Shown here in pieces: positions 5,091 through 34,757 of a DNA stretch of 64,000 bases. The notes beneath the pieces are model-generated. The model worked only from the letters and a program-made list of their open reading frames with translations. It had not been told where the DNA came from and made no database searches. How positions within the stretch are numbered: position 1 is the first letter of the stretch; the number at the start of each line of letters is the position of its first letter. The stretch is from contig NZ_JPLZ01000003.1 of NCBI RefSeq assembly GCF_000735135.1, positions 1 through 64,000 on the forward strand, read 5' to 3'. A program made the translations under genes and the position numbers. The stretch comes from Chryseobacterium sp. FH1. Lineage in GTDB: Bacteria; Bacteroidota; Bacteroidia; Flavobacteriales; Weeksellaceae.

Positions 5091-5155
5091 TGATATTAAA
5101 GTAAAGATTGAGCGTTATTCTTTGTTTTTGTTATCTTTTAGTTTTTTATTTAGAA

Positions 5156-5417
5156 TCATAACAATTCATTTCGTTTGATGTCAATCATATCGCTGTCAAT
5201 CCACAAAAGTTCTGGCTTGGAAGTGAAGTAAAGTCCAAAATATTTTTTCCGTGGATAATTATCAATAAATAGTGGCTTTGTATAGATTTGACGGATTCTA
5301 AAAAGCCCAATTTCAAAGGTGTTCTTTGTAGATTAACTATGAACAAATAAGAATCGCGCCAACACAAAGAATAATGCTGGTGTTGAAAGCGCTTCTTTTA
5401 AAATTGATTTGTGTCAT
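5156..5417 (-). pseudogene. small exported/membrane protein gene, frameshifted
   Basis: From ATG at 5417 the frame encodes MTQINFKRSAF and a hydrophobic stretch (SIILCVGAILICS), then stops at TAG. The frame shifted by one base continues with STKNTFEIGLFRIRQ and FGLYFTSKPELLWIDSDM and ends at TGA 5158-5156. The span is 262 nt, so one extra base separates it from an 86-codon gene. It begins 18 nt after the stop of the neighbouring frameshifted gene, suggesting a shared transcript. No family recognised. A sequencing error is a possible alternative. Confidence 0.55.
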
Positions 5418-5435
5418 TGGGTCTGGACAAGATGA

Positions 5436-6207
5436 TTAAATAGTTAACCGTATGTGTCTCGTCACACTGCGAATATCCCGTTTACTATGAATGCAACCTG
5501 AACAGACATAGATTGTTCCGTTTTTATCACAAACGATGTTAATCATCCTTATTTCATCTTCAGTCAATTTTGAGTCAGCGGTTTTTAATTGTTGAAGTCC
5601 TTCAACTGCGTACACTTGTTTTTCTGCATTTGCTGATTTCAACCACTTGAGTATTTCTGTTTTATTATTAGATTTGACCCATTCGTCCATTTGCGCTCTG
5701 CCTTCTGGACTTGTGCCAGCAATACCACATTGTGAACCGTACATAAAATCTGTTATAAACAAATCATTTTCATTTAAATCTAACTGATAAATGGTCTTAA
5801 AAGAACTTTTTAATTCACCAAAAGCACTATCATTTTTAAAACTATCAATGGTCTCATAGTACGGTTGCCAATCGTTACCAACACTATTGTGTTTCTTTTC
5901 ACTGAGTTCATAATACACAATATTGGTTTTGGTCGTAACGAGGTTCACACGATAAGTGTAAATCGAACTTGTCTCGGGATTATCTTCTTCCGGAACTGAT
6001 TTCTCAAAAATAAAAACACCTTCCTGAAAATCACTTGTCAGGTCACGCAAAAATGCCCAATGCAAGCTTGTTTGCTTTTCATTTTTTGATAGATTGTCGG
6101 TATAGTTTTTTAACGCAACGAAGTCCTTTGTAGCGAGAACCTTTTTAACGTCATTTTGAACTTGTCCAAAGTATTCCGATGAAAATTGATAGTAGTTTTT
6201 TATTCAT
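5436..6207 (-). pseudogene. hypothetical protein gene with 5' homopolymer frameshift
   Basis: A long frame (stop at 5436) is open up to about 6205 but has no ATG. An ATG at 6207 starts ATGAAT followed by six A residues in the wrong frame. Removing one A of that run gives a continuous 256-codon frame beginning MNKNYYQFSSEYFGQVQNDV. The body includes DLNENDLFITDFMYGSQCG and a C-terminal pair of Cys in IYVCSGC. The family is not recognised. The start overlaps the stop of an upstream fragment as TATGAATAA, a coupling-type arrangement. Slippage in the A run could be reversible, a real lesion, or a read error. A TTG at 6065 is the only in-frame start without the repair. Confidence 0.5.
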
Positions 6208-6370
6208 AAGTTAATGATGGTTTAATCCGTCTGCAAAGTCCCTTCGCTTCTCCAAAAAGTCCAAGTTTTTGGTAATAATTTTGAAAATACATTATCATAA
6301 GCATTCCAATGTACCAATTTATTTCAAGCCAAAATACATCTATTTTTTCACCTGTTTTAAAAAGGTTTTC
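6200..6370 (-). pseudogene. ORF remnant in decayed distal cassette
   Basis: An open frame without its own start encodes a tail that reads GEKIDVFWLEINWYIGMLM and ends RRIKPSLTYE at the TAA 6202-6200. The stop overlaps the next ATG. Upstream frames are interrupted by TAA at 6373 and others. The composition (aromatic, amphipathic) looks coding rather than random, but no family is recognised. It is probably the 3' part of a gene lost by frameshifts. Confidence 0.3.
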
Positions 6371-6639
6371 TTAGACTGATATTTTTTTGATAATATGCTT
6401 GCCTTACAAACTGAATTTTTGTATAAATCTTAAGGAACAGAAGAAGAAAGATAAATGAAAATAAAATCAAAATTTGACATCATATTTATTTGTATTTATT
6501 TTGTCGTTAAACTAAAAATAATCATTTAAAATATTTCAAAGTATTACTATTTAAATAGATAATTCCACAGTCGCTATCACGCAGTTATTAGATTTTTGAA
6601 ATTTCAATGTTTTTAGTTTGTCTTTTTAATAAAACTACA
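6371..6639. other. decayed spacer at distal end of the cassette array
   Basis: This AT-rich stretch holds no intact ORF. On the minus strand there is a 17-codon reading frame starting MMSNFDFIFIYL. No palindromic attC-like site is visible. It lies outside the last recognisable attC-like arm and is read as eroded cassette sequence. Confidence 0.4.
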
Positions 6640-6757
6640 CCTAGGGTTTCTGGGTATTTCTAAGTCGAAACTTTCAACTAAAATACAAATTTTAATCGAA
6701 GCAAAAAACGTGAATTTTAGACGTTCCGCCCGCTACTGCCAAACCCTTGTTGGCAGG
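6640..6757 (-). repeat. attC-like site 11 (left arm eroded)
   Basis: The right arm (CGCCCGCTACTGCCAAACCC then TTGTTGGCAG) matches the other sites, and the middle part resembles attC-like site 2 (TTCAACTAAAATACAAATTT). The left arm is degraded, reading TAGGGTTTCTGGGTATTTC instead of a GGGGCTTGGCTATGGCGGGC-type arm. It is therefore probably inactive. It ends the SUKH cassette 6758-7460. Confidence 0.6.
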
Positions 6758-6765
6758 AGTTGTTT

Positions 6766-7167
6766 TTAGTTGTCAATTAGTTCGTCAATTTTATCAGCGA
6801 CTTTTTCTGTCTTTCCTGTTTCGTGATGCCAAGTAAAAATTTCATCACTTAGTTTTCCGTTATTTTCCTTTGTCGGTAATAATACTAAATGGTCGCCACC
6901 TCCATTTGAAGCGATTGCAATCCCATTTGAGGGAAAATTACCCCAATTTTTTGTTTGTTTAGTTTCTAAACCGATATGATTACAAGTTCTACTAATTCTT
7001 TTCTTATCTGATTTGTCAAAAAATGGATATAGATTCCAATCGTCGTCCTCCGTCGTTAATTCTCCGCCATTTTCTTGCATCATTTTAGACTTGAAGTTAT
7101 CAGGAAAAAGAAATCCAAGTTCGTTTTCAGTTTCAATAATGTATTTTTTATCTATTGGGAATGGCAT
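6766..7167 (-). CDS. SMI1/KNR4 (SUKH) family protein, cassette-borne
   Basis: A 133-residue SUKH-fold protein. The order ELGFLFPDNFKSKMMQENGG, a Trp-containing segment, AIASNGGGDHLVLLP and a C-terminal helix is the pattern of the SMI1/KNR4 superfamily. Bacterial SUKH proteins commonly act as immunity proteins against contact-delivered toxins (family knowledge). No toxin gene is present, so this would be an orphan immunity gene carried as a cassette. The gene ends 9 bp from the attC-like site at its 3' side. Confidence 0.75.
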   Translation of the reverse strand: MPFPIDKKYIIETENELGFLFPDNFKSKMMQENGGELTTEDDDWNLYPFFDKSDKKRISRTCNHIGLETKQTKNWGNFPSNGIAIASNGGGDHLVLLPTKENNGKLSDEIFTWHHETGKTEKVADKIDELIDN

Positions 7168-7211
7168 TCTTTTATTTTTTTTAGATGTTAGTCAATAAAC
7201 CTAAAAGGAAT

Positions 7212-7414
7212 TTATTTTTTGAAAGTTAGAATACTTTCTTCAAGTAAGTCTAACGAAATATCTTGCTGAAAAAAGGTTAAGTTCTTTTTCCGTTTTGTGT
7301 CATCACGAAATATTTCCATAATTATTTTGTCGTCACAGTAAATTTCAACGCCAATACATTTCGGTCTTCACTAATATCGCTTGCAATAATTACTTTTTCC
7401 TTCGGTAGTTCCAT
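7212..7414 (-). pseudogene. small cassette protein gene, one-base deletion
   Basis: ATG at 7414 starts MELPKEKVIIASDISEDRNV, and the frame then closes early. The -1 frame carries on with VEIYCDDKIIMEIFRDD and LTFFQQDISLDLLEESI and ends at TAA 7214-7212. The span is 203 nt, one base short of 68 codons. Restoring a G in TTGGCGTTG would give VLGVEIYCDD and a 67-residue protein. It shares a cassette with the SUKH gene 44 bp downstream. Function is unknown, and it is too short to assign to a family. Confidence 0.6.
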
Positions 7415-7452
7415 TTGTTAATTGCTTTGGTTTTGAGTCGTTGTTTATAATT

Positions 7453-7590
7453 ACCGCCAATGTTTTGGAGCTTTGAGATAGCGGGGGCAACCGAAGTGCA
7501 AAAGTTCAGCCTTAAACCGAGCCTAAATTAATGAAAAAAAGCTGAAGTTCACACTTCAGCCTCCATAAAGCAAAACCCTTGTTAAAGGCT
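7453..7590 (-). repeat. attC-like site 10
   Basis: The left arm CCAATGTTTTGGAGCTTTGAGATAG and right arm AAAGCAAAACCCTTGTTAAAGG pair imperfectly, as in the other sites. Its right-hand core (CCTTTAAC on the minus strand) does not match the start of any cassette nearby, and the left core carries CATT instead of CGTT. An unrelated terminator hairpin sits in its centre. Confidence 0.6.
7534..7562 (-). terminator. intrinsic terminator after the aldo/keto reductase
   Basis: On the minus strand GGCTGAAGT-GTGA-ACTTCAGC is a perfect stem with a short loop followed by seven T residues. It lies 33 bp beyond the stop of the reductase gene and inside attC-like site 10. Confidence 0.75.
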
Positions 7591-7594
7591 GTGT

Positions 7595-8640
<1,046 letters not shown>

Positions 8641-8648
8641 AAGTGATT

Positions 8649-9218
8649 TTAGTGGATGTTTTTTCTAATTCTGCTTAATGAAGATTGCGTAATTCCCAAA
8701 TACGAAGCAATAAATGATAACGGCACACGATTTACCAATGTTGGGAATTTTTCCATAAAATCAAGATAACGTTCTTTAGCATCTTGGGAAATCAATTCAC
8801 TTCTTCTCGAAATTTTTTCGCTGTGATGTTTGGTAATTATTTTTTGAACAATGTTGTCCCACCCAATAATGGTATTGGCAATTTCTTTCCAATCTTGTTT
8901 TGAGAAAACAAGCATTTTGCAATCAGTGATTGCTGATAGATATTCTGAAGGTGTATAAACTTCGTCAACCGTATTGCCCGATAAAATCAAATGGTTTTCG
9001 TCAATAAAGTAGCGTGTGATTTCTTCGCCTTTGTTGTTATAGTAATAAACACGAAGAACACCGTCCGTAAGAAATCCGATTTGTCTAACTGTTTTTCCTG
9101 CTTCCCAATAAAACTCGTCTTTGCGAAGCTCAATTTCTTTCGCTTTGCTTTTTATGAGGTCAATTTGTTGCTTGTTCAAATTGCCGAATTGTAGCACATA
9201 TTCAATAAATTCTTTCAT
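8649..9218 (-). CDS. Crp/Fnr family transcriptional regulator (array module)
   Basis: A 189-residue protein with an N-terminal cyclic-nucleotide-binding-like beta barrel (for example KTVRQIGFLTDGVLRVYYYN near residue 43) and a short C-terminal helix-turn-helix ending FIASYLGITQSSLSRIRK. The ligand is not evident, and canonical cAMP-contact residues are not apparent. It lies directly upstream of the aldo/keto reductase. A near-perfect copy of the reductase operator stands in front of its own promoter, so it probably activates or represses both. Paralogues with the same size and order of neighbours occur at 59519 and 62670. Confidence 0.8.
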   Translation of the reverse strand: MKEFIEYVLQFGNLNKQQIDLIKSKAKEIELRKDEFYWEAGKTVRQIGFLTDGVLRVYYYNNKGEEITRYFIDENHLILSGNTVDEVYTPSEYLSAITDCKMLVFSKQDWKEIANTIIGWDNIVQKIITKHHSEKISRRSELISQDAKERYLDFMEKFPTLVNRVPLSFIASYLGITQSSLSRIRKNIH

Positions 9219-9222
9219 TTAG

Positions 9223-9267
9223 CAAAGTTAGAAATTGTTGCCTGTCGGTTATTTGTCATTTGGCAAA
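9223..9267 (-). promoter_or_regulatory. operator and -7 box of the Crp/Fnr gene
   Basis: TTTGTCA-TT-TGGCAAA (9252-9267) is a 16-bp palindrome with one mismatch. Its centre is 29.5 bp upstream of TAACTTTG (9230-9223), a perfect TAnnTTTG -7 element. The start codon at 9218 is only 5 bp beyond the box, so the transcript is nearly leaderless. Operator sequence and spacing match those in front of the reductase gene. Confidence 0.65.
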
Positions 9268-9302
9268 AACGTCTGATTGCTCGGTCGTTCTAATATGGTC
9301 TG

Positions 9303-9426
9303 TTACGGTTTGGGAATTTTCGATGGTGGGGCAATCGAAGCACAAATCTTCAATTTTGCACAAAACTTCAATCGAAGAAATACCGATGAACTTTGCACTT
9401 TCTATTGCCAAACCCTTGTTAGTGGA
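9303..9426 (-). repeat. attC-like site 9
   Basis: The right arm (TATTGCCAAACCCTTGTTAG) and central part match the consensus, while the left arm is partly eroded (GTTTGGGAATTTTCGATGG). The left core reads CGTA instead of CGTT on the minus strand. Its outer core TCCACTAAC is the exact complement of the first nine bases of the SUKH cassette it terminates. Confidence 0.75.
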
Positions 9427-9428
9427 GG

Positions 9429-9875
9429 TTATTTTATCCCTATTTCGTCATGCCATTCATACAATCCACCAGTTTCAAATACATTTCCCGTTAGAAATCT
9501 TTGGAGAAATTCGGTTAGAGAGGACGTTATGGTTTTGTCGGGATAACTTCCATTAAATATTTCAAACTTTCCTGTTTTTGTTCGTCTAAGTCCCCACATG
9601 TCAGAGTAAATCATATACTCCGAAAAATAAAACCAGTTGTCTCCATAGTCTTGCTGATATTGCTTAATGTCTTGAAGTGCAACCATATTAAATATGTCGT
9701 CATTACAACCAAAGCCATTGCAGGTCAAATAGAACTCTCTAAAGTCTATCGGCAATGAAAAACCTATTTTTCTTTCAAAGTCAGCGATGTCAAAAAGTGA
9801 CGCTGGAGGGTTGACGTCAATACCATTGTTATTATGCTTATGCCTTATTAAATTGACTAAGTCTCCTATGTTCAT
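9429..9875 (-). CDS. SMI1/KNR4 (SUKH) family protein, second cassette copy
   Basis: A 148-residue SUKH protein: IADFERKIGFSLPIDFREFY, CNGFGCNDDIFNM, a WFYF segment and a Trp-containing C-terminal part. The ATG at 9875 is chosen because the cassette begins at about 9900 (core GTTAGTGGA), so a start further upstream would lie inside attC-like site 8. It is not closely similar to the SUKH protein at 6766, so the two are independent acquisitions. Immunity to a toxin is the family's usual role; no toxin is nearby. Confidence 0.75.
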   Translation of the reverse strand: MNIGDLVNLIRHKHNNNGIDVNPPASLFDIADFERKIGFSLPIDFREFYLTCNGFGCNDDIFNMVALQDIKQYQQDYGDNWFYFSEYMIYSDMWGLRRTKTGKFEIFNGSYPDKTITSSLTEFLQRFLTGNVFETGGLYEWHDEIGIK

Positions 9876-9891
9876 TCTCGTCTGTTTAATT

Positions 9892-10090
9892 TCCACTAAC
9901 GGAAAAAGTATTGGCGAAGTGCGGTGATTTCGAAGAGCTGAAAGTTCAAGAAAGACCAAATGTAGACGATATTTTTTCGTGTGACTAAGTTATAAAAATG
10001 TCGAAACGAAAAATAGTGGCGACAAAAAAAGGTGAAAATTTTCAACTTTGATGAAAACACGCATTTTGCCAATACAATGTTATGTGTAGT
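9892..10090 (-). repeat. attC-like site 8, divergent and long
   Basis: The arms AACGGAAAAAGTATTGGCG (from 9898) and GCATTTTGCCAATACAATGTT (to 10081) pair through GTATTGGC/GCCAATAC, but the sequence and the ~199-bp length differ from the other sites. It keeps the AAC...GTT ends and the position between two cassette genes. This shows structure conserved over sequence, as is typical of attC sites. Confidence 0.65.
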
Positions 10091-10093
10091 ATT

Positions 10094-10684
10094 TTAATTC
10101 GGATTGAACTGAATATTAAAATACTTTAAATAATCCTCTATTGGCTCCAGTCCCATTTCTTTTCTTCTTTCATTCACAGTTTCAGGATTTTCTAATTTAT
10201 ACAATTTACCATTTTCTATTTGTGAACCATATATTTGGGGTTTTCCTTCGTCCATTAAAATCCTGTCTTTCATCAATGCGTACTGTTGTTTAGATAAGTC
10301 TCCATTTTCAACCGCTTTCTCTATTTGTGGAAAATACTTTTTTCTGATTTCTTCAGTACTATGTTGCAGGCCCAACCAGATTGCATCCATTTGTCTTTGA
10401 CCCACCTCCTTTAATGTTGGCATACCACATTTTTCAATAATGCTAATCACTAATTCTTGATTCCTATGATCTTCTTTAGCGTATTTGATGAGTTCATTTG
10501 ATTTTCTAATCCTTTGGTCACTTTCTAAAACTTCGCTCAAGATTTGACGTTTTTTGCTGCAATCGACTTCAATAATATCTACTGAACCTACATAGACAAA
10601 TTTATCTCTATTCATATAAAGGAATATTGATATTGTTAAAACAATTGCGGTTAATATGCTGAACAATATTTTTTTTATTTTCAT
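10094..10684 (-). CDS. DUF6624-like exported protein, cassette-borne
   Basis: A 196-residue protein with one N-terminal hydrophobic segment (residues about 5-20, ILFSILTAIVLTISIFLY). The domain that follows contains WLGLQHSTEEIRKKYF, LMKDRILMDEGKPQIYGSQ and NERRKEMGLEPIEDYL. The same order (IQHS, TDRIATFENKPQFYGTQ, RRKSIGLNTLEE) appears in the chromosomal gene at 60690, which I take to be DUF6624. ATG 10684 is used because upstream codons lie in attC-like site 7. Only about 28 bp separate the cassette start from the ATG, leaving no room for a promoter. Molecular function is unknown. Confidence 0.7.
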   Translation of the reverse strand: MKIKKILFSILTAIVLTISIFLYMNRDKFVYVGSVDIIEVDCSKKRQILSEVLESDQRIRKSNELIKYAKEDHRNQELVISIIEKCGMPTLKEVGQRQMDAIWLGLQHSTEEIRKKYFPQIEKAVENGDLSKQQYALMKDRILMDEGKPQIYGSQIENGKLYKLENPETVNERRKEMGLEPIEDYLKYFNIQFNPN

Positions 10685-10704
10685 TTCTATTTTTGGTTTA
10701 TATT

Positions 10705-10840
10705 GCAGACAACGTTTCGGGGCTTTGCGATGGTGGGGCAATCGAAGCGCAAAACTTCAATTTTGCACAAAAGTTGAACCGAAGAACAACCGTTGAACTT
10801 TGCAGTTTTGCCCCACTATTGCAAAACCCTTGTTGGCAGT
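10705..10840 (-). repeat. attC-like site 7
   Basis: The left arm GGGGCTTTGCGATGGTGGGG pairs with the right arm CCCCACTATTGCAAAACCC over 17 of 20 positions. Outer cores are GACAACG and TTGTTGGCAG. The core TACTGCCAAC matches the complement of the next cassette's start GTTGTCAGTA at 9 of 10 positions. Confidence 0.85.
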
Positions 10841-10857
10841 AGTTTTTTTATTCGTTT

Positions 10858-11457
10858 CTATATGTTTTTAAGTTTTTCGTCAAACCAAATGTCTTCATAA
10901 CCTTTACTGTCAATTAAAAATCTGAAGCCAATGTCAAGTCCTAAATATTTAATTATTTCTGGTCTTTGTTGTAGCAAATGTTCTGCACAAATTGGTTTGA
11001 AAAAGTCGTCTGCTTCTGAATATTCACCCGTCCATATAAACCAACCCGTTGTTCCTTTTTCTGCTGGATGTCTTAGTCCATTAATTGGGTCTTTTTCAAG
11101 GTTTGTGGAAACACCGATATTTAATTTCTTGTTGATTGGTTTCCAAGTTGAGTTACTTTTTTCGCAAATTTCTTTTTGTGTGTCAATGTGTATATTCCAA
11201 TTATTATGAATTAGCAAATCATCTTTTTCAGTCAATAAACGTTTTTTCCACAGTGAAACATTTGTTTTGTTAATTTCAAAATTAATATCCTCGTTATCCC
11301 ACTCAAAAATTGTATCTGAAATAATTTCGTCTTCGTCCCATTCGAAATCCTCATCGCTAATTGCAGTCCAAGCAAAATTTTGAATTACGATTTTGTCAAT
11401 TTTATCGTCTAAAAAATTGTCGCAAAGTTCTATTAAATTTTGTCTGGTTACTTTCAT
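10858..11457 (-). CDS. hypothetical cassette protein, immunity-like
   Basis: A 199-residue acidic soluble protein with no signal peptide. A conserved-looking core reads GLRHPAEKGTTGWFIWTGEY, then DDFFKPICAEHLL and LGLDIGFRFLIDSKGYEDIW. I have an impression of immunity-protein-like families found near polymorphic toxins, but I cannot name the family. ATG 11457 lies about 29 bp after the cassette start, so expression must come from upstream. Confidence 0.65.
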   Translation of the reverse strand: MKVTRQNLIELCDNFLDDKIDKIVIQNFAWTAISDEDFEWDEDEIISDTIFEWDNEDINFEINKTNVSLWKKRLLTEKDDLLIHNNWNIHIDTQKEICEKSNSTWKPINKKLNIGVSTNLEKDPINGLRHPAEKGTTGWFIWTGEYSEADDFFKPICAEHLLQQRPEIIKYLGLDIGFRFLIDSKGYEDIWFDEKLKNI

Positions 11458-11478
11458 TTCGAGTTGTTTCTAAAATTA

Positions 11479-11612
11479 CTGACAACGTTTCGGGGCTTTG
11501 CGATGGTGGGGCAATCGAAGCACAAATCTTTAATTTTGCACTAAATTTCAATCGAAGAACTACCGTTTAACTTTGCGGTTTCGCCCTACTATCGCAAAAC
11601 CCTTGTTATCTG
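11479..11612 (-). repeat. attC-like site 6
   Basis: This is a consensus-type site: left arm GGGGCTTTGCGATGGTGGGG, right arm CCCTACTATCGCAAAACCC. The outer core GCAGATAAC is the exact complement of the start of the lipoprotein cassette it terminates (GTTATCTGC at about 12307). Confidence 0.85.
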
Positions 11613-11618
11613 CTGTGC

Positions 11619-12293
11619 TTATTTTTCAGTAGTTCTTAGTGGTTGAAATTTTTCTAATTTATTAAAATCAAAATTATTTTTTGGTATTAGTTTGTGTGCA
11701 TCAAAAGACAAACCTCTATTGTTGTCAAATTTATTCTTTTCAAAGTTTTTAATTTCAAGATAATTTGAGCCCATAATTATTTGTGAGTTTTCATTATTAT
11801 AGACTAAAGAATCATTTTCATTTTTAAAAATTAATTTTCCATTTTTTTCATAAAATTTTGAGAATTTAAATTCCGACATTGCCATTGATGAAAACATAGT
11901 GAAAACATTGTTTTTGATACTAATTCCTTTATAGTTTTGTGTTTCAGTTTTAAAAGGTTGTTTAGTTACAATACTATGATTTTGTGATATAGTATTAATT
12001 ATCAAGTTGTTATTTTTCCATTCTATCTTAAAAGGTCGAGAATTTTGAACTCTAAAAAAATCGCCATTATAAAGGTCAGGTTTTTCTTGATATTTCACGA
12101 CTTGTAAAGCATTTACAGTTGAGCCAAATGACATTCCACTTTCAATGTTGTACAAATAAACATCGTATTGATTATTTGGTGATGATAATTTTTCAACATT
12201 AGTTATTTGACTTTTTTCATATTTGGAGCAACTCCAAAATAGAGAAAAAATAATTAAAAATATGAAAATATTATTGTTAGAAGTGGTTTTCAT
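11619..12293 (-). CDS. hypothetical lipoprotein, cassette-borne
   Basis: A 224-residue protein. The ATG at 12293 gives a hydrophobic N-terminus and a lipobox FWSC (Cys about 22). Longer upstream readings run through attC-like site 5 and are not credible. The body is AT-rich, with beta-type patterns such as NGKLIFKNENDSLVYN. No family recognised. The start codon is about 14 bp from the cassette junction. Confidence 0.65.
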   Translation of the reverse strand: MKTTSNNNIFIFLIIFSLFWSCSKYEKSQITNVEKLSSPNNQYDVYLYNIESGMSFGSTVNALQVVKYQEKPDLYNGDFFRVQNSRPFKIEWKNNNLIINTISQNHSIVTKQPFKTETQNYKGISIKNNVFTMFSSMAMSEFKFSKFYEKNGKLIFKNENDSLVYNNENSQIIMGSNYLEIKNFEKNKFDNNRGLSFDAHKLIPKNNFDFNKLEKFQPLRTTEK

Positions 12294-12300
12294 AGCATGG

Positions 12301-12433
12301 CAGATAACGGTTCGGGTATTGCCGAAGGCGGGGATTTTAGTACAAAAGTTCAATCGAAGAACGAATGTTGAACCTTGCACAAATATCCAATCGAAGCCGT
12401 TCAGCCCCGCTTTTGGCAATACCTTGTTAGCGG
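12301..12433 (-). repeat. attC-like site 5
   Basis: The arms CGGGTATTGCCGAAGGCGGGG and CCCCGCTTTTGGCAATACC pair imperfectly. Both arm sequences differ from sites 6 and 7 but co-vary. The outer core ACCGCTAAC is the exact complement of the start GTTAGCGGT of the two-gene cassette it terminates. Confidence 0.85.
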
Positions 12434-12441
12434 TTCGTTGT

Positions 12442-13134
12442 TTATTCATTTTTGTTTCTTGCAATTCTAAATCCAAGGTCGTCAATTTTAAATTTTAGAG
12501 GATGACTTCTTCGTCTGGTAGTCGCCATTACGCTACGTTCTTCGTCACACCAACCTCCACCTCTGAAAATCCGATATGAGCCATACACTTCCGTGTCGTA
12601 TAAGTCTGAACACCATTCCCAAACGTTACCCAACATATCGTAAAGTCCCCAAGCGTTTGGTTTTTTCTGTCCTACGTTATGAGTTGTTTGTTCCGAATTA
12701 TCTTTATACCAAGCTATCAAATCTAATTTATCGTATCTGATTTCGGTTGTTTCTGCTTTACAAGCATATTCCCATTCTGCCTCTGTCGGCAAACGAAAAC
12801 CATTTGCTGTTTGGTCAAAAGAAATTTCTCCATTTTGCTCACTCAATATGTAGCAGGATTTTAGTTCTAACTTTTCAGACAATAGATTACAAAAAATAAT
12901 AGCTTCTTTCCAAGTAACAGTTTCAACAGGTAGTTTGTCACCTTTAAAAGTGCTTGGTGTTTCATTTATAATGTCAAAATAAATGTCTTGTGTTACGGGA
13001 AATTTTGCGAGTAAAAAGGGTTTTATGTTTACAGACCATTTTTGTTTTATTCTGTCATCACGCAATTCAATTTCTCCGCTCGGTATTTCTACCAAAAGGT
13101 TCTTTAAGGTCGTAGCTAAAACATCTATATTCAT
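12442..13134 (-). CDS. formylglycine-generating-enzyme-like (SUMF1/FGE-sulfatase) protein
   Basis: A 230-residue protein with the SUMF1/FGE fold markers: KPFLLAKFPVTQDIYFDI, PVETVTWKEAIIFCNLLSEK, NGFRLPTEAEWEYACKA, WGLYDMLGNVWEWCSD and a final RIFRGGGWCDEE with DLGFRIARN. True FGEs oxidise sulfatase cysteines, whereas many bacterial relatives act on other targets or are non-catalytic. The protein is shorter than typical FGEs (about 280-370), so a compact relative is likely. It is the second gene of a two-gene cassette, 23 bp after the DUF4180 gene, and its stop is 8 bp from the attC-like site. Confidence 0.8.
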   Translation of the reverse strand: MNIDVLATTLKNLLVEIPSGEIELRDDRIKQKWSVNIKPFLLAKFPVTQDIYFDIINETPSTFKGDKLPVETVTWKEAIIFCNLLSEKLELKSCYILSEQNGEISFDQTANGFRLPTEAEWEYACKAETTEIRYDKLDLIAWYKDNSEQTTHNVGQKKPNAWGLYDMLGNVWEWCSDLYDTEVYGSYRIFRGGGWCDEERSVMATTRRRSHPLKFKIDDLGFRIARNKNE

Positions 13135-13157
13135 TTGTCTGCCAATACTTTTATTGC

Positions 13158-13493
13158 TTATGATTGAGAAGCTACAAAGTTAATCTGTCTGCCTTTGTTG
13201 CTTTCATAAATGAAATCGTTAATACTTTTGCTCGTGTGTTTTGAGAAGTCGCCAATGATTGCCAACCGAACACGATAATTAGAAAATTTTTGAAGTATTT
13301 CGCCTGCCATTCCATTCTTTAAGTCAAAAAAGTCGGGCGTAATATTTTGTTCGTGAATTATGATTTTGTCGAAGTCCTGATAATACAAATTTCCCAACAA
13401 GTCTAAACCGTCCGAAGTGTTATTTATGATGTTGTCTGCTGAAATTACTTCTGCAATTTTTATGTCGTCTATATTGTGAATTTCAATGTTCAT
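13158..13493 (-). CDS. DUF4180 domain protein
   Basis: A 111-residue protein almost wholly covered by the DUF4180 pattern: DLLGNLYYQDFDKIIIHEQN, DFFDLKNGMAGEILQKFSNY and RLAIIGDFSKHTSKSINDFI. The fold is thought to be STAS-like or alpha/beta; function is unknown. It is the first gene of the two-gene cassette 12434-13543 and is followed by the FGE-like gene. The pairing may be functional, since cassettes usually hold one gene. Confidence 0.8.
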   Translation of the reverse strand: MNIEIHNIDDIKIAEVISADNIINNTSDGLDLLGNLYYQDFDKIIIHEQNITPDFFDLKNGMAGEILQKFSNYRVRLAIIGDFSKHTSKSINDFIYESNKGRQINFVASQS

Positions 13494-13536
13494 TTTGCTT
13501 GTCTTTCGTTTGTTGCACGGTGTCTGTTACAATGAC

Positions 13537-13673
13537 CGCTAACGTCCCACGGCTTGGCGATAGCGGGGCAACCGAAGCAGGAAAGTTTCAACTAAAATAC
13601 AAAATAAAATAGAAATAGAAAGCGTGGCTTGGTTAGATTCAGCCCCGCTATTGCCAAACCGATGTTGTCTGCA
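13537..13673 (-). repeat. attC-like site 4
   Basis: The arms ACGGCTTGGCGATAGCGGGGC and GCCCCGCTATTGCCAAACCG pair over most positions. The outer core TGCAGACAAC is the exact complement of the start GTTGTCTGCA of the ORF-less cassette to its right. Confidence 0.85.
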
Positions 13674-13988
13674 GTATTTTTTATTACGTCGAATCGGAAT
13701 TTCGTGCGTTCATTTCGATTTTGAGAAGCAGAAATTTTCAGCAATTTATTCTTCACCTAAATTTCATTTTTCGTCAGTTTATTTTTTCAAAGTTGTTTTT
13801 TATTGAATGTTTTCACGCAAAAAATTCCTTTTAATTTTCCGTTTTCCCTGTCATTGTCTTTCCGTTAAATTCAATTTGTCAGTTTTCAAGAATGTTTAGA
13901 TTTTCAAATTTAAGAAAGTTCATTTTTCAGAACTTCAGTTAATTCAATTTCAGGAAATTTGATAGATTAGGCTTGCGTAAAAATATTG
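13674..13988 (-). other. cassette without a recognisable ORF
   Basis: Between attC-like sites 4 and 3 lie about 315 bp with no reading frame longer than 15 codons after an ATG on the minus strand. The sequence is rich in TTTTC/GAAAA and has several short ATG frames (such as MNFLKFENLNILEN) that close quickly. It could carry a promoter, a small RNA or a dead gene. Its start and its attC-like core are complementary, so it behaves structurally as a complete cassette. Confidence 0.6.
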
Positions 13989-14121
13989 CAGACAACGTTT
14001 CGGGGCTTTGCGATGGTGGGGCAATCGAAGCACAAAACCTCAATTTTGCACAAAAGTTCAATCGAAGAACAACTGTTGAACTTTGCAGTTTCGCCCCACT
14101 ATTGCAAAACCCTTGTTATCT
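13989..14121 (-). repeat. attC-like site 3
   Basis: A consensus site with left arm GGGGCTTTGCGATGGTGGGG and right arm CCCCACTATTGCAAAACCC. The outer core TACAGATAAC is the exact complement of the start GTTATCTGTA of the cassette it terminates. That cassette gene's stop codon TAA is part of this core. Confidence 0.9.
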
Positions 14122-14820
14122 GTAGCCCAATATTTTGTTTATCCAATTTTTAGATTTTTTAGTTCTTACTTCCTTTTCAAGTTTAATATTATTTGAACTT
14201 CTTGTTATAGAAAATTCACTTCCATTATCCAAGAGTTCCCATCTATAAACACAGGAATTTTCTCCGTCACATTTTGGACATCTTGGATAAACTGTATAAA
14301 ATTGTTTTTGAATTATTAATGAATTTGCTAAAGCAATTCTCAGTTTATCACTTTCGTTTTCAATTATTGTTTCCTTTGTAATATCTTCGATTTTAAGTAG
14401 ACTTTCAAAATTTTCAGTAGGAAGTAACCTTTTTATCAAACTTGGTAAATTTCTTTTTGCAAGAATATCATTAAATGAGTATTCGGATATTTCAGAATAT
14501 TCACACTTTCTGCAAATCTTTCCTTCAAATTGATGAATATTTACATTTGGAAATTCAATTTTATTTTTTATAACAAATGTCCAACTCATTGATTTTAGCA
14601 ATTGGAATAGGTTTTCTTTCCAAGCTCCATTTTTATTATTTTCTCCAATTGCAATATCATTGATAGAGCCCATTCCTCCAAATGCTCCTCTATGATGTTT
14701 TGTTGATTGATTTATCTTCCAATCCTCAATATCTTTTTCAATCCATTTTGCCCAATGTGAATTATCAGATTCCTCCAAAATCTGTTTTTCTAACATCAAT
14801 ATTTTTAGATAGTTGTTCAT
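14116..14820 (-). CDS. hypothetical protein with two Cys pairs, cassette-borne
   Basis: A 234-residue soluble protein. Two CxxC elements, CRKC (about residue 109) and CPKC (about 190, in YPRCPKCDGENSCVYRWELL), suggest a structural zinc site. The N-terminus includes HHRGAFGGMGSINDIAIG. No family recognised. The stop codon lies inside the attC-like core, and the ATG is about 17 bp after the cassette start, so almost the whole cassette is coding. Confidence 0.65.
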   Translation of the reverse strand: MNNYLKILMLEKQILEESDNSHWAKWIEKDIEDWKINQSTKHHRGAFGGMGSINDIAIGENNKNGAWKENLFQLLKSMSWTFVIKNKIEFPNVNIHQFEGKICRKCEYSEISEYSFNDILAKRNLPSLIKRLLPTENFESLLKIEDITKETIIENESDKLRIALANSLIIQKQFYTVYPRCPKCDGENSCVYRWELLDNGSEFSITRSSNNIKLEKEVRTKKSKNWINKILGYR

Positions 14821-14829
14821 TTTGGGTTA

Positions 14830-14963
14830 CAGATAACGTTTTGGGGCTTGGCTATGGCGGGCAAATCGAAGCCGAAACCTTCAACTAAAATACAAATTTC
14901 AACCGAAGCACAAAACGTGAACTTTTGACATTCCGCCCGCTATTGCCAAACCCTTGTTAGCCG
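14830..14963 (-). repeat. attC-like site 2
   Basis: The arms GGGGCTTGGCTATGGCGGGC and GCCCGCTATTGCCAAACCC pair strongly. Compared with sites 1 and 3, both arms changed together (TGGCTATGGCGGGC with GCCCGCTATTGCCA). The outer core TACGGCTAAC is the exact complement of the start of the leucine-rich-repeat cassette. Confidence 0.9.
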
Positions 14964-14971
14964 TAGTCTTT

Positions 14972-15850
14972 TTAGTAGATGATTTTAGTTTTAGGCATTC
15001 TTTTTTCTATTTCTCTAATTTTAAATTCATCAATTGGATTATCAATTAGAGATATTTCTTTTAGTTTTTTTAATTCGGTTATTTCAATGGGTAGATTTTG
15101 AATATTATTTTCAAATAGATTTAGTTCTTCTAAATTTTCTAATAGTTTTATGTTATTGGGAAGTTGAGAAATTTTATTTCCACTAAAATGTATAATTCTT
15201 AGTTTATTACAATTAGATAAGCTGTCAACTATTGAATTAGCATTAAATTTCTCTTGATGTATATAACCTAACTCTTCTAAATTTGTTAAATATTTATATT
15301 TTAAAGTTAGTTCTGGAATTTGGTTTGCTCCTAAATTTAATCTTTTTAAATATTTGAATTTATGTACTTCGGCAAGATTTTTCCTGAAATCAAAGTTGTA
15401 TAAACTTGTTATATCAAGAGCTTCTAATTTTGTATTTCCTGAATAGAATTCATTTGGAAAATCTTTAAAATCATTCCACCAAAGTCCAATTTCTTTTAAG
15501 TTATGTAATTTTGTAATTTCTAATGGGAAATCATTTAATCTATTCATTCCCAAATTAAGATATTGTAAATTTTTCAATACTTCAATTCCTTTTACATCTT
15601 TAAAAGCATTTTTAGATAAATCCAACTCTTGTAAATTTTGCATTTTAAAAACAACCTCAGGAATTTTGTCAATTCCTTTTCCTGATAGGTCTAATCTTAG
15701 AACTTCTTCCAAATTTTTTGGTAAACTATCAAGTTTAAAAAGAAACTTATTTTCTTCTAATTCTTTTATGGAATATAACTTTGTTTCAGTTTTTTTTGAA
15801 CAAGAAATAAATGCAAATATTGAAAATGTTATTATTAGGAGAGTTTTCAT
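14972..15850 (-). CDS. leucine-rich-repeat lipoprotein, cassette-borne
   Basis: A 292-residue protein with a lipoprotein signal (hydrophobic segment, then FISC, Cys about residue 17) and about nine LRR units of roughly 23 residues. Examples are MQNLQELDLSKNAFKDV, LKNLQYLNLGMNRLNDF, LENLEELNLFENNIQNL and LKKLKEISLIDNPIDEF. LRR lipoproteins mediate protein contacts at the cell surface, or in the periplasm if retained there; the partner is unknown. The ATG lies 13 bp after the cassette junction. Confidence 0.85.
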   Translation of the reverse strand: MKTLLIITFSIFAFISCSKKTETKLYSIKELEENKFLFKLDSLPKNLEEVLRLDLSGKGIDKIPEVVFKMQNLQELDLSKNAFKDVKGIEVLKNLQYLNLGMNRLNDFPLEITKLHNLKEIGLWWNDFKDFPNEFYSGNTKLEALDITSLYNFDFRKNLAEVHKFKYLKRLNLGANQIPELTLKYKYLTNLEELGYIHQEKFNANSIVDSLSNCNKLRIIHFSGNKISQLPNNIKLLENLEELNLFENNIQNLPIEITELKKLKEISLIDNPIDEFKIREIEKRMPKTKIIY

Positions 15851-15858
15851 AAGATTAC

Positions 15859-15990
15859 GGCTAACGTTTTAGGGCTTTGCGATGGTGGGGCAATCGAAGC
15901 ACAAATCTTCAATTTTGTACAAATGTTGAACCGAAGAACTACAGTTGAAATTTGCAATTACGCCCCACTATCGCAAAACCCTTGTTAGCG
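15859..15990 (-). repeat. attC-like site 1 (first cassette)
   Basis: The arms AGGGCTTTGCGATGGTGGGGC and CCCCACTATCGCAAAACCC pair nearly perfectly through GCTTTGCGATGGTGGGG. The outer core ACCGCTAAC is the exact complement of the first nine bases of the first cassette, GTTAGCGGT at the attI-like junction. Confidence 0.9.
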
Positions 15991-16013
15991 GTTCGGCTTT
16001 TTTTGGTTCATTT

Positions 16014-16568
16014 TTAAAACTTTGATAAAAGTTCATCTTGTTCGTCTGGTTTGTCATAGGCATCGGCTTCTGTTAGATGTCCATCTTGGTCGCTTATTCT
16101 TGTAAGCTTTTTTCCTTGTCTAAATACTAATTGAAGTCCGTGTTCTTGTTCCCAGTCACATTCACAAGCAATGAAAACATATATATCTTGGTCTTTATAA
16201 TGTCGTCTTGTTACATAAATTTCACTGGGGTGGATAAAGTTCCAAATTTCGTTTTTGTTATTTATTTGTCTTAATGGCTCGTCATCTTCGTCATATTCTA
16301 CTGCTTCCAAAAAGTCCATACAGTTTTTGTATGCTAATTCTGAAATTGAATTTCGGTCATCTGTTTTTAGTGCAAGAAAATTTCTCAAAGCTTGGTCAGC
16401 TTCTTCGATAAAAGTCTTGTCGTGTTCAGGTTCAAAATCCATAAAAGTTATCGTCAACTTCTCATTTTCGAAAAACGGAATGGATATTTCTTCACTTTTC
16501 CACCAATCAGGGAAATTGTCATCTTGTTTTAGTTGTCCAATTATTTGGGATATAATTTCTTTTTTCAT
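16014..16568 (-). CDS. DUF6985-like protein, first cassette
   Basis: A 184-residue acidic soluble protein. The C-terminal half reads WNFIHPSEIYVTRRHY, DIYVFIACECDWEQEHGLQL, VFRQGKKLTRISDQDGHLTE. I associate this pattern with DUF6985, a family seen near polymorphic-toxin and immunity genes, but the assignment is from memory. As the attI-proximal gene it should be the most strongly expressed of the array. The ATG is 35 bp after the insertion point, and a TAnnTTTG box lies just upstream of that point. Confidence 0.65.
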   Translation of the reverse strand: MKKEIISQIIGQLKQDDNFPDWWKSEEISIPFFENEKLTITFMDFEPEHDKTFIEEADQALRNFLALKTDDRNSISELAYKNCMDFLEAVEYDEDDEPLRQINNKNEIWNFIHPSEIYVTRRHYKDQDIYVFIACECDWEQEHGLQLVFRQGKKLTRISDQDGHLTEADAYDKPDEQDELLSKF

Positions 16569-16594
16569 TTTTGTCGGTGTCGTTATTTAAGCTG

Positions 16595-16680
16595 ACCGCT
16601 AACACTCAAATATACGAAAGTTTGTTAAAAAGAAAAGAAGAATTTATTTTTTTAATAACATCGCAGTGTCATTAGTTTTT
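16595..16680 (-). other. attI-like insertion site
   Basis: The first cassette begins at GTTAGCGGT on the minus strand (insertion point at 16603). The sequence right of it has none of the attC arm sequence and leads directly to the recombinase gene, as attI does in integrons. Only one core (GTT) is clear. The outer limit at 16680 is a guess. Confidence 0.65.
16607..16614 (-). promoter_or_regulatory. cassette promoter -7 box (Pc-like)
   Basis: TATATTTG on the minus strand is a perfect Bacteroidota -7 element (TAnnTTTG), 4 bp from the GTT insertion point. The predicted transcript start therefore falls on the first bases of the inserted cassette. A clear -33 TTG at 17-19 bp is not seen. Confidence 0.5.
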
Positions 16681-16699
16681 TTTACTAATTTTATCTTTC
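16671..16699 (+). promoter_or_regulatory. recombinase promoter with inverted repeat
   Basis: TATCTTTC (16692-16699) differs from TAnnTTTG at one position and lies 48 bp before the recombinase ATG. Just upstream, ATTAGT-N7-ACTAAT (16671-16689) is a perfect 6-bp-arm inverted repeat overlapping the -33/-7 spacer, where a repressor could bind. Confidence 0.4.
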
Positions 16700-16746
16700 G
16701 CATTATTAATAGATAATATTGATTGTTCTGTGAGCAAATATTTAAA

Positions 16747-17838
16747 ATGCGAATGCAAAACACATTTAGGATGGACTTAGATTTATACAATTTCAGTTTT
16801 GGTACGCACAGAGATAAAAACGTTATTTGGATTCGTTTTGAGAAAAACTACACGTTGATTCAAGAACTTAGAAAAGCTTTTCCATCGGCCAAATGGAGCA
16901 ATACATACCGAGCCTGGCATTTGCCAGATCTTCCAACCGTGAGAGATGCGCTGGGGCTGGAGAGAAAAGAATGGGGAAGCCACATCAAATCCGAGATAGA
17001 TCCAGTGAACCAAAAGGCTTTTTCGGATTTTATAGATCAACTCAAGCTAAAAGCCTATAGTAAAAATACCATCCGGACATATGTTACAGAGTTTGGACAC
17101 CTGCTTAGGATTCTTAAGGCTTTTCCAGTAGACAATCTCTCAGAAGATCGGCTGAAAGATTACTTTCTTTACTGCTTAGAGAAAGAAAAAATCAAGGAAA
17201 ACCATTTGAACAGCAGGATCAATGCTGTGAAGTTCTATTTTGAGCAGGTACGTAGAAAATCGAGAATGTTATATGATATCCCGCGTCCCAAAATACCTCA
17301 GCTATTGCCAAAAATGCTGTCGCAAGCAGAAGTCCGAAAGATTTTTGACCATACAACAAACCAAAAACACCTGTTGATGTTGCAACTTTGCTACGGGATG
17401 GGACTGCGTGTAAGCGAGATTGTAAACCTGAAAGTAGAACATATCAACAGTGGCAATATGCTGGTTCTCATTGCAGGGGCCAAAGGAAAAAAAGATAGAT
17501 ATACCAATTTGCCAGAGTCCGTTCTGGTGCTTCTAAGGAGTTATTACAAAACCTATCGCCCGAAGGATTACCTCTTCGAAGGGCAGTACGGCGGAGCATA
17601 TACTGTTAGAAGTGTGCAAAGTGTCTTCAAGCAGGCAATGGGAAAAGCAAAAGTCAACAAAAACATTGGCGTCCACGGTTTGCGCCATTCCTATGCCACA
17701 CACCTGATGGAGAGTGGTGCAGATATTCGGTTTTTGCAACAGCTTCTGGGACATAATTCTATCAAAACGACGCAGATTTACACGCACATCACAGATATTT
17801 CCAAAGCCAAGGTAAAGAGTCCATTGGATTTTTTGTAA
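16747..17838 (+). CDS. tyrosine recombinase, putative integron-type integrase
   Basis: A 363-residue tyrosine recombinase with the full catalytic set: Arg221 (GMGLRVSEI), Lys248 (GAKGKKDR), His310 and Arg313 (HGLRHSYATH), His336 (LLGHNS) and Tyr345 (QIYTHI). The C-terminus KVKSPLDFL resembles the tail of IntI proteins. About 62 residues separate the Lys from the HxxR motif, close to the Xer spacing and much shorter than in IntI1, so the IntI-specific insertion appears absent. An extra N-terminal module of about 75 residues (AKWSNTYRAWHLPDLP) precedes the SAM-like core-binding domain; I recall similar modules in Bacteroidota recombinases. It is divergent from the cassette array. ATG 16747 is preferred over TTG 16723; 16753 is also possible. 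Confidence 0.85.
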   Translation: MRMQNTFRMDLDLYNFSFGTHRDKNVIWIRFEKNYTLIQELRKAFPSAKWSNTYRAWHLPDLPTVRDALGLERKEWGSHIKSEIDPVNQKAFSDFIDQLKLKAYSKNTIRTYVTEFGHLLRILKAFPVDNLSEDRLKDYFLYCLEKEKIKENHLNSRINAVKFYFEQVRRKSRMLYDIPRPKIPQLLPKMLSQAEVRKIFDHTTNQKHLLMLQLCYGMGLRVSEIVNLKVEHINSGNMLVLIAGAKGKKDRYTNLPESVLVLLRSYYKTYRPKDYLFEGQYGGAYTVRSVQSVFKQAMGKAKVNKNIGVHGLRHSYATHLMESGADIRFLQQLLGHNSIKTTQIYTHITDISKAKVKSPLDFL

Positions 17839-34642: not shown

Positions 34643-34757
34643 CAGAAGCTAAATCCCGCTTTCCACTATATCTTTTTTGTTTTTAGAAGTTTTGTCATCT
34701 AAATTTAAAATTTGCACCAAAAACAAAAAAGGATGCCGTTGCAATCGGGGCTAGTGG
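34643..34757 (-). ncRNA. flavobacterial structured repeat, possible Flavo-1-type RNA (copy B)
   Basis: On the minus strand: CTAGCCCCGATTGCAACGGC, then ATCCTTTTTTGTTTTTGG, an AT-rich middle, then AAAACAAAAAAGATATAGTGG and AAAGCGGGATTTAGC. Complementary TTTTTTGTTTTT/AAAAACAAAAAA arms close a large hairpin. The layout matches copy A at 28716. It lies between rsmA and idi and is not translated. Confidence 0.45.

Follow-up and report, generated by a model that had tools for sequence, protein, structure and literature searches.

An integron-like cassette array beside a non-IntI tyrosine recombinase in Chryseobacterium sp. FH1

Chromosomal integrons of the IntI type, as known from Vibrio and Xanthomonas, have a recognizable anatomy, with a divergently transcribed tyrosine recombinase, an attI end beside it, a series of alike palindromic sites, one or two genes of the same direction per cassette, crossover at G^TT and array-less clusters of sites elsewhere (general features partly from PMC8618304; this and the other papers are cited from excerpts throughout). 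They have been delimited by IntI and/or by clusters of attC sites (PMC9668308), and by an IntI that carries an additional domain (PMC2426708). Bacteroidota is listed among the integron phyla (PMC9668308, PMC8618304), and one survey names a single complete integron in Bacteroidetes, that of Salinibacter ruber M1, besides those in Chlorobi and Ignavibacteriae (PMC9024848). Here we describe a cassette array in Chryseobacterium sp. FH1 that lies within positions 1 to 64,000 of the forward strand of NZ_JPLZ01000003.1 (this whole 64,000-nucleotide stretch, the start of contig C3 in a genome of 3.98 Mb, is called the window below). The array shares the anatomy just listed, and differs from IntI integrons in its core, which is GTTRNNNGNNA and not GTTRRRY, and in a junction that sits directly on a promoter-like box of Bacteroidota type. 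From comparison of sequences we consider it very probable that this is a system of integron-like gene capture, in which a recombinase without the IntI-specific domain would insert circular cassettes at an attI-like junction.

The array occupies positions 6634-16603 and consists of eleven related palindromic sites, all in one orientation, together with the intervening genes, all of which read leftward. The distance from crossover to crossover is 112-121 bp in nine of the eleven sites and 179 bp in site 8; decay has affected the last site in its left arm, at about 6640. At the other end the array terminates at 16603 with a single, attI-like half-site (...CCGCTAAC|ACTC...); the divergent recombinase begins about 144 bp further on, with its ATG at 16747. 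A preliminary description of this DNA had claimed that palindromes separate leftward genes, that the end site lacks palindrome arms and adjoins a divergent tyrosine recombinase, and that the genes have scant room for promoters; each of these is borne out, the last by junction-to-ATG gaps of 34, 14 and 16 bp in cassettes 1-3. It had also placed the start of the region at 5156, and here the array is real but that coordinate falls left of the last recognisable site. A covariance model (R1) trained on six of the eleven sites recovered ten of them in the own genome (E 3.6e-40 to 2.6e-6), missing site 8, and found ten further sites at four places outside the array, giving 20 in total after six extra rows, the reverse strand of sites already counted, were discarded. 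The four off-array groups resemble the clusters of attC sites lacking integron-integrases (CALIN) that accompany IntI integrons. An Rfam scan returned no family at the array sites, and comparison of phage records with the array part 5400-13300 gave a single short matching stretch of at most 105 bases.

The opening bases of an integron cassette and the site downstream of it were once part of one circle, and these bases should consequently pair with the arm of that site and not with a neighbouring arm. In the eleven window cassettes the start and the arm of the own downstream site agree at 85 of 99 letters; shuffled pairings had a mean of 60.3 and a maximum of 82, and none of 100,000 reached 85. 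The two arms within one standing site agree at only 53 of 90 letters. The matching was replicated in 44 segments of 11 other loci, where 301 of 396 letters agree (within-locus shuffles: mean 238, maximum 281, 0 of 20,000 reaching 301), and in the 29 segments whose two anchors carry GTT and AAC it rises to 239 of 261 letters. Such end matching within cassettes is what would be expected if each had once been a closed circle, a property of IntI integrons that is seen here in the window and at the other loci. The starts themselves read GTTRNNNGNNA (39 of 40 begin with GTTR, 38 have G as the seventh letter and all 40 have A as the tenth), and the IntI core GTTRRRY fits none of the 40.

The same data bear on whether the palindromes are merely insertions between genes, of the kind of miniature inverted-repeat transposable elements (MITEs) or repetitive extragenic palindromes (REPs), with the recombinase a chance neighbour. 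The preliminary description had held that palindromes scattered through the genome without the recombinase would count against its reading, and this is true of half of them in the own genome, ten of the 20 lying elsewhere at four places and the other ten in the array at the recombinase; moreover, among the matches listed, 42 of 59 recombinases of the class have no site within 20 kb. A repeat insertion would not, however, make both ends of the intervening segment match, and we know of no repeat-insertion model that yields such matching. The uniform orientation of the array, the conserved junction at the recombinase described below and a linkage above chance also speak against such insertions: among the matches listed, 17 of 59 recombinases are within 20 kb of a site, with ~1.5 expected (the 59 come from genomes that also have a site on the list, and the expectation assumes 3.7-Mb genomes and unlinked sites). 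We regard an origin as MITE- or REP-like insertions as very unlikely.

The junction at the recombinase is conserved. On the strand facing the array, TATATTT is present at 13 of 13 loci of the genus and family (window included) and the full box TATATTTG at 12 of the 13, in the layout TATATTTG-N3-GTT, and beyond the GTT the sequences of the 13 loci are unlike; a fourteenth locus, in G034, is cut by a contig end and stands outside this count. In the window the junction spans 16598..16625 on the minus strand, with the G^TT crossover at 16603 and the box, at 16607-16614 in plus-strand numbering, reading into the array. A strict pattern, TAnnTTTG-N2-5-GTTR, occurs upstream of 25 of 106 recombinases, with 0.02 expected per locus; two of these 25 rows repeat others, one is the window, and seven are at 41-46% identity. 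The attI site beside the integrase of IntI integrons thus has its counterpart here. TAnnTTTG is the -7 promoter element of Bacteroidota, and TATATTTG is a putative Pc, which we infer to be a working promoter. If the box is active, every new cassette would be placed directly onto a promoter.

The recombinase gene (16747..17838, plus strand) encodes 363 aa from its ATG, within a frame open from a TTG at 16723. The protein has an N-terminal domain of ~90 aa, a SAM-like domain and a catalytic domain in which the catalytic residues are present, and it is without the IntI-specific domain. The box I Arg and box II His are 89 residues apart, as against 131 in 13 of 14 IntI rows and 96 in three XerD; across 57 rows of the family, the window and rows that repeat a locus among them, the distance is 89 in 51, 90 in five and 81 in one (the motif was unmatched in 25 rows, one of them IntI). 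In keeping with this, the alignment to IntI4 skips chain residues 209-246. Against the IntI profile TIGR02249 the protein scores 180.9 bits, under the cut-off of 265. In the tree, eight IntI rows form one group (100/100) on a long branch with no row of the window's recombinase family inside, and the window's lineage makes up a second group (100/100) with 16 of its 17 rows; the deep branch order is not settled, several Xer and other recombinase rows are long branches, and the family may be a sister group of IntI. Three features that define IntI, namely the domain, the clade and score, and the core, were each tested and are lacking here, and by sequence the recombinase family is not IntI. The preliminary description had called the locus a chromosomal integron, and of that reading the layout, the attI-like end, the cassette ends and the between-species turnover described below stand, and membership of the IntI-defined family, by domain and clade, does not. 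One could still propose a true IntI integron whose integrase has lost the extra domain. With no family row inside the IntI group and all 57 measured distances at 89, 90 or 81, none near 131, this appears quite unlikely.

The closest solved structures are archaeal XerA and IntI4 by sequence, and XerA, IntI4 and XerH by fold. Archaeal XerA-like proteins give the best NCBIfam and PDB sequence matches (NF040815; 4a8e, 5hxy) and XerA tops both fold lists, although the NF040815 score of 207.7 bits is under the equivalog cut-off of 220; unlike archaeal XerA, the window recombinase has the extra N-terminal domain and a cassette array alongside. This Xer-like character raises the thought that the host XerC/XerD move the cassettes, as they do Acinetobacter pdif modules, and Xer enzymes might indeed use similar sites. 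The separate Xer-like genes found elsewhere in the own genome sit in other groups of the tree, however, and the sites here are ~120-bp palindromes in one orientation rather than 28-bp pdif (size from PMC13028724; no dedicated pdif search was made), which leaves host XerC/XerD extremely unlikely as the enzymes at work. The N-terminal domain (window 16747-17010) is predicted to contain strands and helices, has no family or fold match, and is missing from part of a second recombinase lineage. Relatives at 61% identity in a Treponema metagenome-assembled genome (MAG) and, as a partial sequence, at 57% in a Desulfobulbaceae MAG (L074, L116) may be binning errors. Two candidate ways of delimiting the family were rejected: PKDYLFEGQ as its signature, the strict motif being present in no more than 4 of the 295 class genomes, the own one included, and a count of recombinases at E 1e-45, a threshold that host XerD also passes.

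Sites of IntI integrons fold into hairpins, and so can these. We collected 77 sites and used the 55 that were anchored, with AAC and GTT at the expected places, to test the stem. A 28-pair stem is paired in 87% of cells over the 55 sites, a value that drops to 38-53% once one arm slides by 1-3 bases. Double changes are seen in 19 of the 28 pairs, no excess over the slid versions (10-22), so it is the pairing itself, and not that count, that serves as evidence. The plus strand, which is the bottom strand relative to the cassettes, was folded as a single strand at ten sites; its folds are strong at six (best site z -5.35) and weak (z -0.62 to -1.89) at the four at 14956, 9418, 7581 and 6749, and they are more stable than those of the other strand in eight of the ten.

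Which form of the site would be recombined can be addressed from this asymmetry. G.T wobbles favour the plus strand both in the inner stem (129 vs 27; 11 columns vs 6) and in the cassette ends (46 vs 6), and the R1 consensus structure has a one-sided 4-nt bulge next to the R box; the sites are related by descent and not independent, which makes the wobble bias supportive rather than decisive. The alternative is that the recombinase moves cassettes on ordinary double-stranded DNA, the palindrome serving only as a paired binding site. Such a mechanism would suit an enzyme without the I2 domain: IntI can still exchange double strands, and the path to single-strand recombination probably began with extrahelical bases and I2 (PMC4792948). 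Against it stand the wobbles skewed to one strand in stem and ends alike, the bulge on one side only, and the greater stability of the plus strand. We hold double-strand exchange to be doubtful, and recombination of a single strand at the folded site to be probable, as judged from fold and wobble patterns.

Several observations weigh against integron-like capture and should be considered together. The ten off-array sites of the own genome are not beside the recombinase. An R1 match (E <=1) lies upstream of the recombinase orthologue in 10 of the 13 stretches read, leaving three without one: G018 (~19 kb read), G012 (~6 kb) and G034, where the contig ends. Cassettes 8, 10 and 11 agree less well with their own sites (6, 5 and 7 of 9 letters), and 15 of the 44 replication segments have no GTT or AAC at one or both anchors. 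As to the strand, position 10 alone contributes 31 of the 46 end wobbles, and without it the count is 15 vs 6. The presence of PKDYLFEGQ in every alignment row is partly an artefact, KDYLFEGQ having been the search word used. Lastly, the I2 domain, with which IntI reads extrahelical bases, is absent.

Integron-like capture also predicts turnover, which was compared between species as the genome collection holds one genome per species (G012 and G017 are of the same genus as the window). Genes downstream of the recombinase are common to the window and five species, G001, G003, G004, G012 and G018, and when 13 window cassette frames were compared with the stretches in these five species none was shared, the one match, of 33 residues, lying in a site. 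In G003 genes of both flanks are shared, with proteins 90-97% identical apart from the recombinase (84%) and one antisense frame (66%), and all of its DNA matches to the array at the locus (13 among the matches listed, E <=1e-20) are 124-168 nt, the size of a site. The recombinase beside different cassettes, which the preliminary description had proposed to look for in relatives, is seen in G003, where both flanks and no cassette are shared. Cassettes also recur elsewhere. The body of cassette 5 (12425-13544) has a counterpart in another genus that matches it at 75% identity from junction to junction and is flanked by a site on either side, of which one is weak (21.7 bits). For the gene region of cassette 8, four species have copies at 84-93% identity, and one of these species belongs to another genus. 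Between species, then, the locus varies in its cassettes, and individual cassettes turn up at other places. The Crp-reductase pair of cassette 10 is present in three related species with no R1 site in the surrounding stretch read, which suggests that this cassette recruited an ordinary chromosomal gene pair. Some relatives (L114, L092, L156) have a second layout of the system, with oppositely oriented sites placed downstream of the recombinase.

The sites are widespread. R1 sites occur in 38 of 59 close relatives (E <=0.01) and in 178 of 295 sampled species of the window's class (E <=0.001), and also in 13 of 97 species of an order outside the class where IntI is common. IntI scores over its cut-off in 93 of 345 genomes of the phylum, but in only 1 of the 295 of the window's class. 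A recombinase-site system of the kind described here would explain why the survey cited above has a single complete Bacteroidetes integron (PMC9024848) despite sites in so many species of the class.

Resistance genes were found as cassettes. In two other genera of the window's family, tet(X) homologues occupy such arrays. In G030 the homologue (L042, 15239-16396), 85.8% identical to Tet(X3), is the first cassette at the junction, and all 9 letters compared at its start agree with the arm of its own site; in G026 (L043, 16473-17630) it comes second, after an lnu(H) homologue (74.5%), and here too all 9 letters agree. Matches to a window site are present in plasmid sequences of 58 records, and Acinetobacter accounts for 46. 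The lnu(H) gene of an Empedobacter brevis plasmid has an R1 site (104 bits) at its end, and its start equals the arm of its own site over the first 9 letters. The G030 cassette is 86% identical to pHH1107, with mismatches before the cassette start and ~300 displayed bases after it identical. Upstream of tet(X3), pHH1107 carries a relative of the window recombinase (46.6% identity, Arg-His distance 89), and 21 bp past the tet(X3) stop there is a site match of 72 bases at 79.5%; scored by R1 this truncated remnant is not significant (11.3 bits, E 0.88). The shared cassette start, the recombinase relative and the site remnant point to tet(X3) having left a Flavobacteriales array as a cassette. 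On Empedobacter plasmids (L153, L154) the further resistance genes catB, tet(36), mef(C)-mph(G), arr and tet(X2) are near sites of the R1 type.

Two reported cases are close to these. In Acinetobacter the unit xerD-tet(X3)-res-ISVsa3 (PMC7494873, PMC13028724) includes the recombinase relative, and its tet(X3) still has the start of the cassette and part of the site; it differs from the window in that recombinase and tet(X3) point in the same direction, the open frame of the recombinase is short at 246 residues and the site is truncated. The origin of tet(X) has been reported in Flavobacteriaceae, in the excerpt without this kind of capture (PMC7494873), and by sequence comparison the recombinase-site system is a likely route: a homologue stands in such an array in two genera, and the tet(X3) plasmid shares the cassette start. 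In Riemerella anatipestifer, aph(3')-IVb integrates without homology via natural transformation, as a unit that has a stretch of 27 bp on its 5' side and one of 140 bp on its 3' side, where the sequence folds like attC; the authors of that study see a parallel with lnu(H) and blaRATA and regard the mechanism as incompletely elucidated (PMC13148043). The case comes near to the window through its attC-like tail; the excerpt names no recombinase. A system of the window's type is a likely explanation of this homology-free integration.

Our literature search, whose scope left out most subscription journals and all preprints, named no paper that describes the window's recombinase-site system, the nearest being PMC13148043 as excerpted, and this agrees with the impression of the preliminary description that the system may be undescribed or little described. 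The mechanism we propose runs as follows. The window recombinase would do the cutting, acting on one folded DNA strand, and circular cassettes would be inserted via their folded palindromic sites at the junction by the promoter-like box; the boundaries at G^TT are those read from the sequence. The newest cassette would be transcribed first. With each insertion the older ones would end up farther from the junction, and they would decay, which seems to have happened to the last sites of the window. We also lean towards the wider proposition, taken jointly, that Bacteroidia have a second, IntI-independent integron system, widespread, using folded palindromes without I2 and delivering cassettes onto a promoter, which would be a platform for tet(X) and lnu(H) and the mechanism of the Riemerella case. 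Integrons are defined by IntI, and the same anatomy without I2 makes it directly testable whether extrahelical bases and I2 came first on the way to recombining folded single strands.

The cargo of the array, assigned by Pfam, is diverse, and all eleven cassettes lie on the minus strand. Counted from the junction, cassette 1 (15865..16603; site 15855-15994) holds a DUF6985 gene at 16014-16568, cassette 2 (14837..15865; site 14827-14966) a leucine-rich-repeat protein at 14972-15850, and cassette 3 (13996..14837; site 13986-14125) a DUF6966 protein at 14116-14820. Cassette 4 (13543..13996; site 13533-13674) is short and without a clear gene. Cassette 5 (12308..13543; site 12298-12436) has two genes, encoding a DUF4180 protein (13158-13493) and an FGE-sulfatase-like protein (12442-13134). 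In cassette 6 (11486..12308; site 11476-11615) a DUF5412-like frame, below the Pfam cut-off, is open over 11619-12485 and overruns the upstream site, the true start being probably inside the cassette. Cassette 7 (10713..11486; site 10703-10842) encodes an Imm33-like immunity protein at 10858-11457. Cassette 8 (9900..10713), whose site is larger and diverged (9890-10089), carries a DUF6624 protein at 10094-10741, and cassette 9 (9306..9900; site 9296-9428) a SUKH/SMI1 immunity-like protein at 9429-9959; in both of these, too, the gene probably starts inside the cassette. Cassette 10 (7461..9306; site 7451-7591) combines a Crp-like regulator (8649-9218, its Pfam match just under cut-off) with an aldo/keto reductase (7595-8593), and cassette 11 (6634..7461) ends the array with a SUKH/SMI1 protein at 6766-7167 and the half-decayed last site (6634-6759). 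Eight of the 12 cassette genes are immunity-like or encode proteins of unknown function, in line with the varied cargo that had been noted at the outset; such a mixture would suit a store of genes of local benefit better than a single pathway. Defence cargo was considered and set aside: PADLOC, run on nine of the 12 cassette proteins and the recombinase, gave weak matches for three of the ten, the best at E 3.8e-6.

Two further features of the window lie outside the array. To the left of the last site, 5140-6169 is 94% and 83% identical to one place in G020, and a 92-nt piece of it, 5319-5410, recurs in G014 and G018; the segment may be another mobile or repeated element, separate from the array. 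A Flavo-1 RNA (RF01705) is found at window 34648-34756 on the minus strand, with a score of 70.8 bits.

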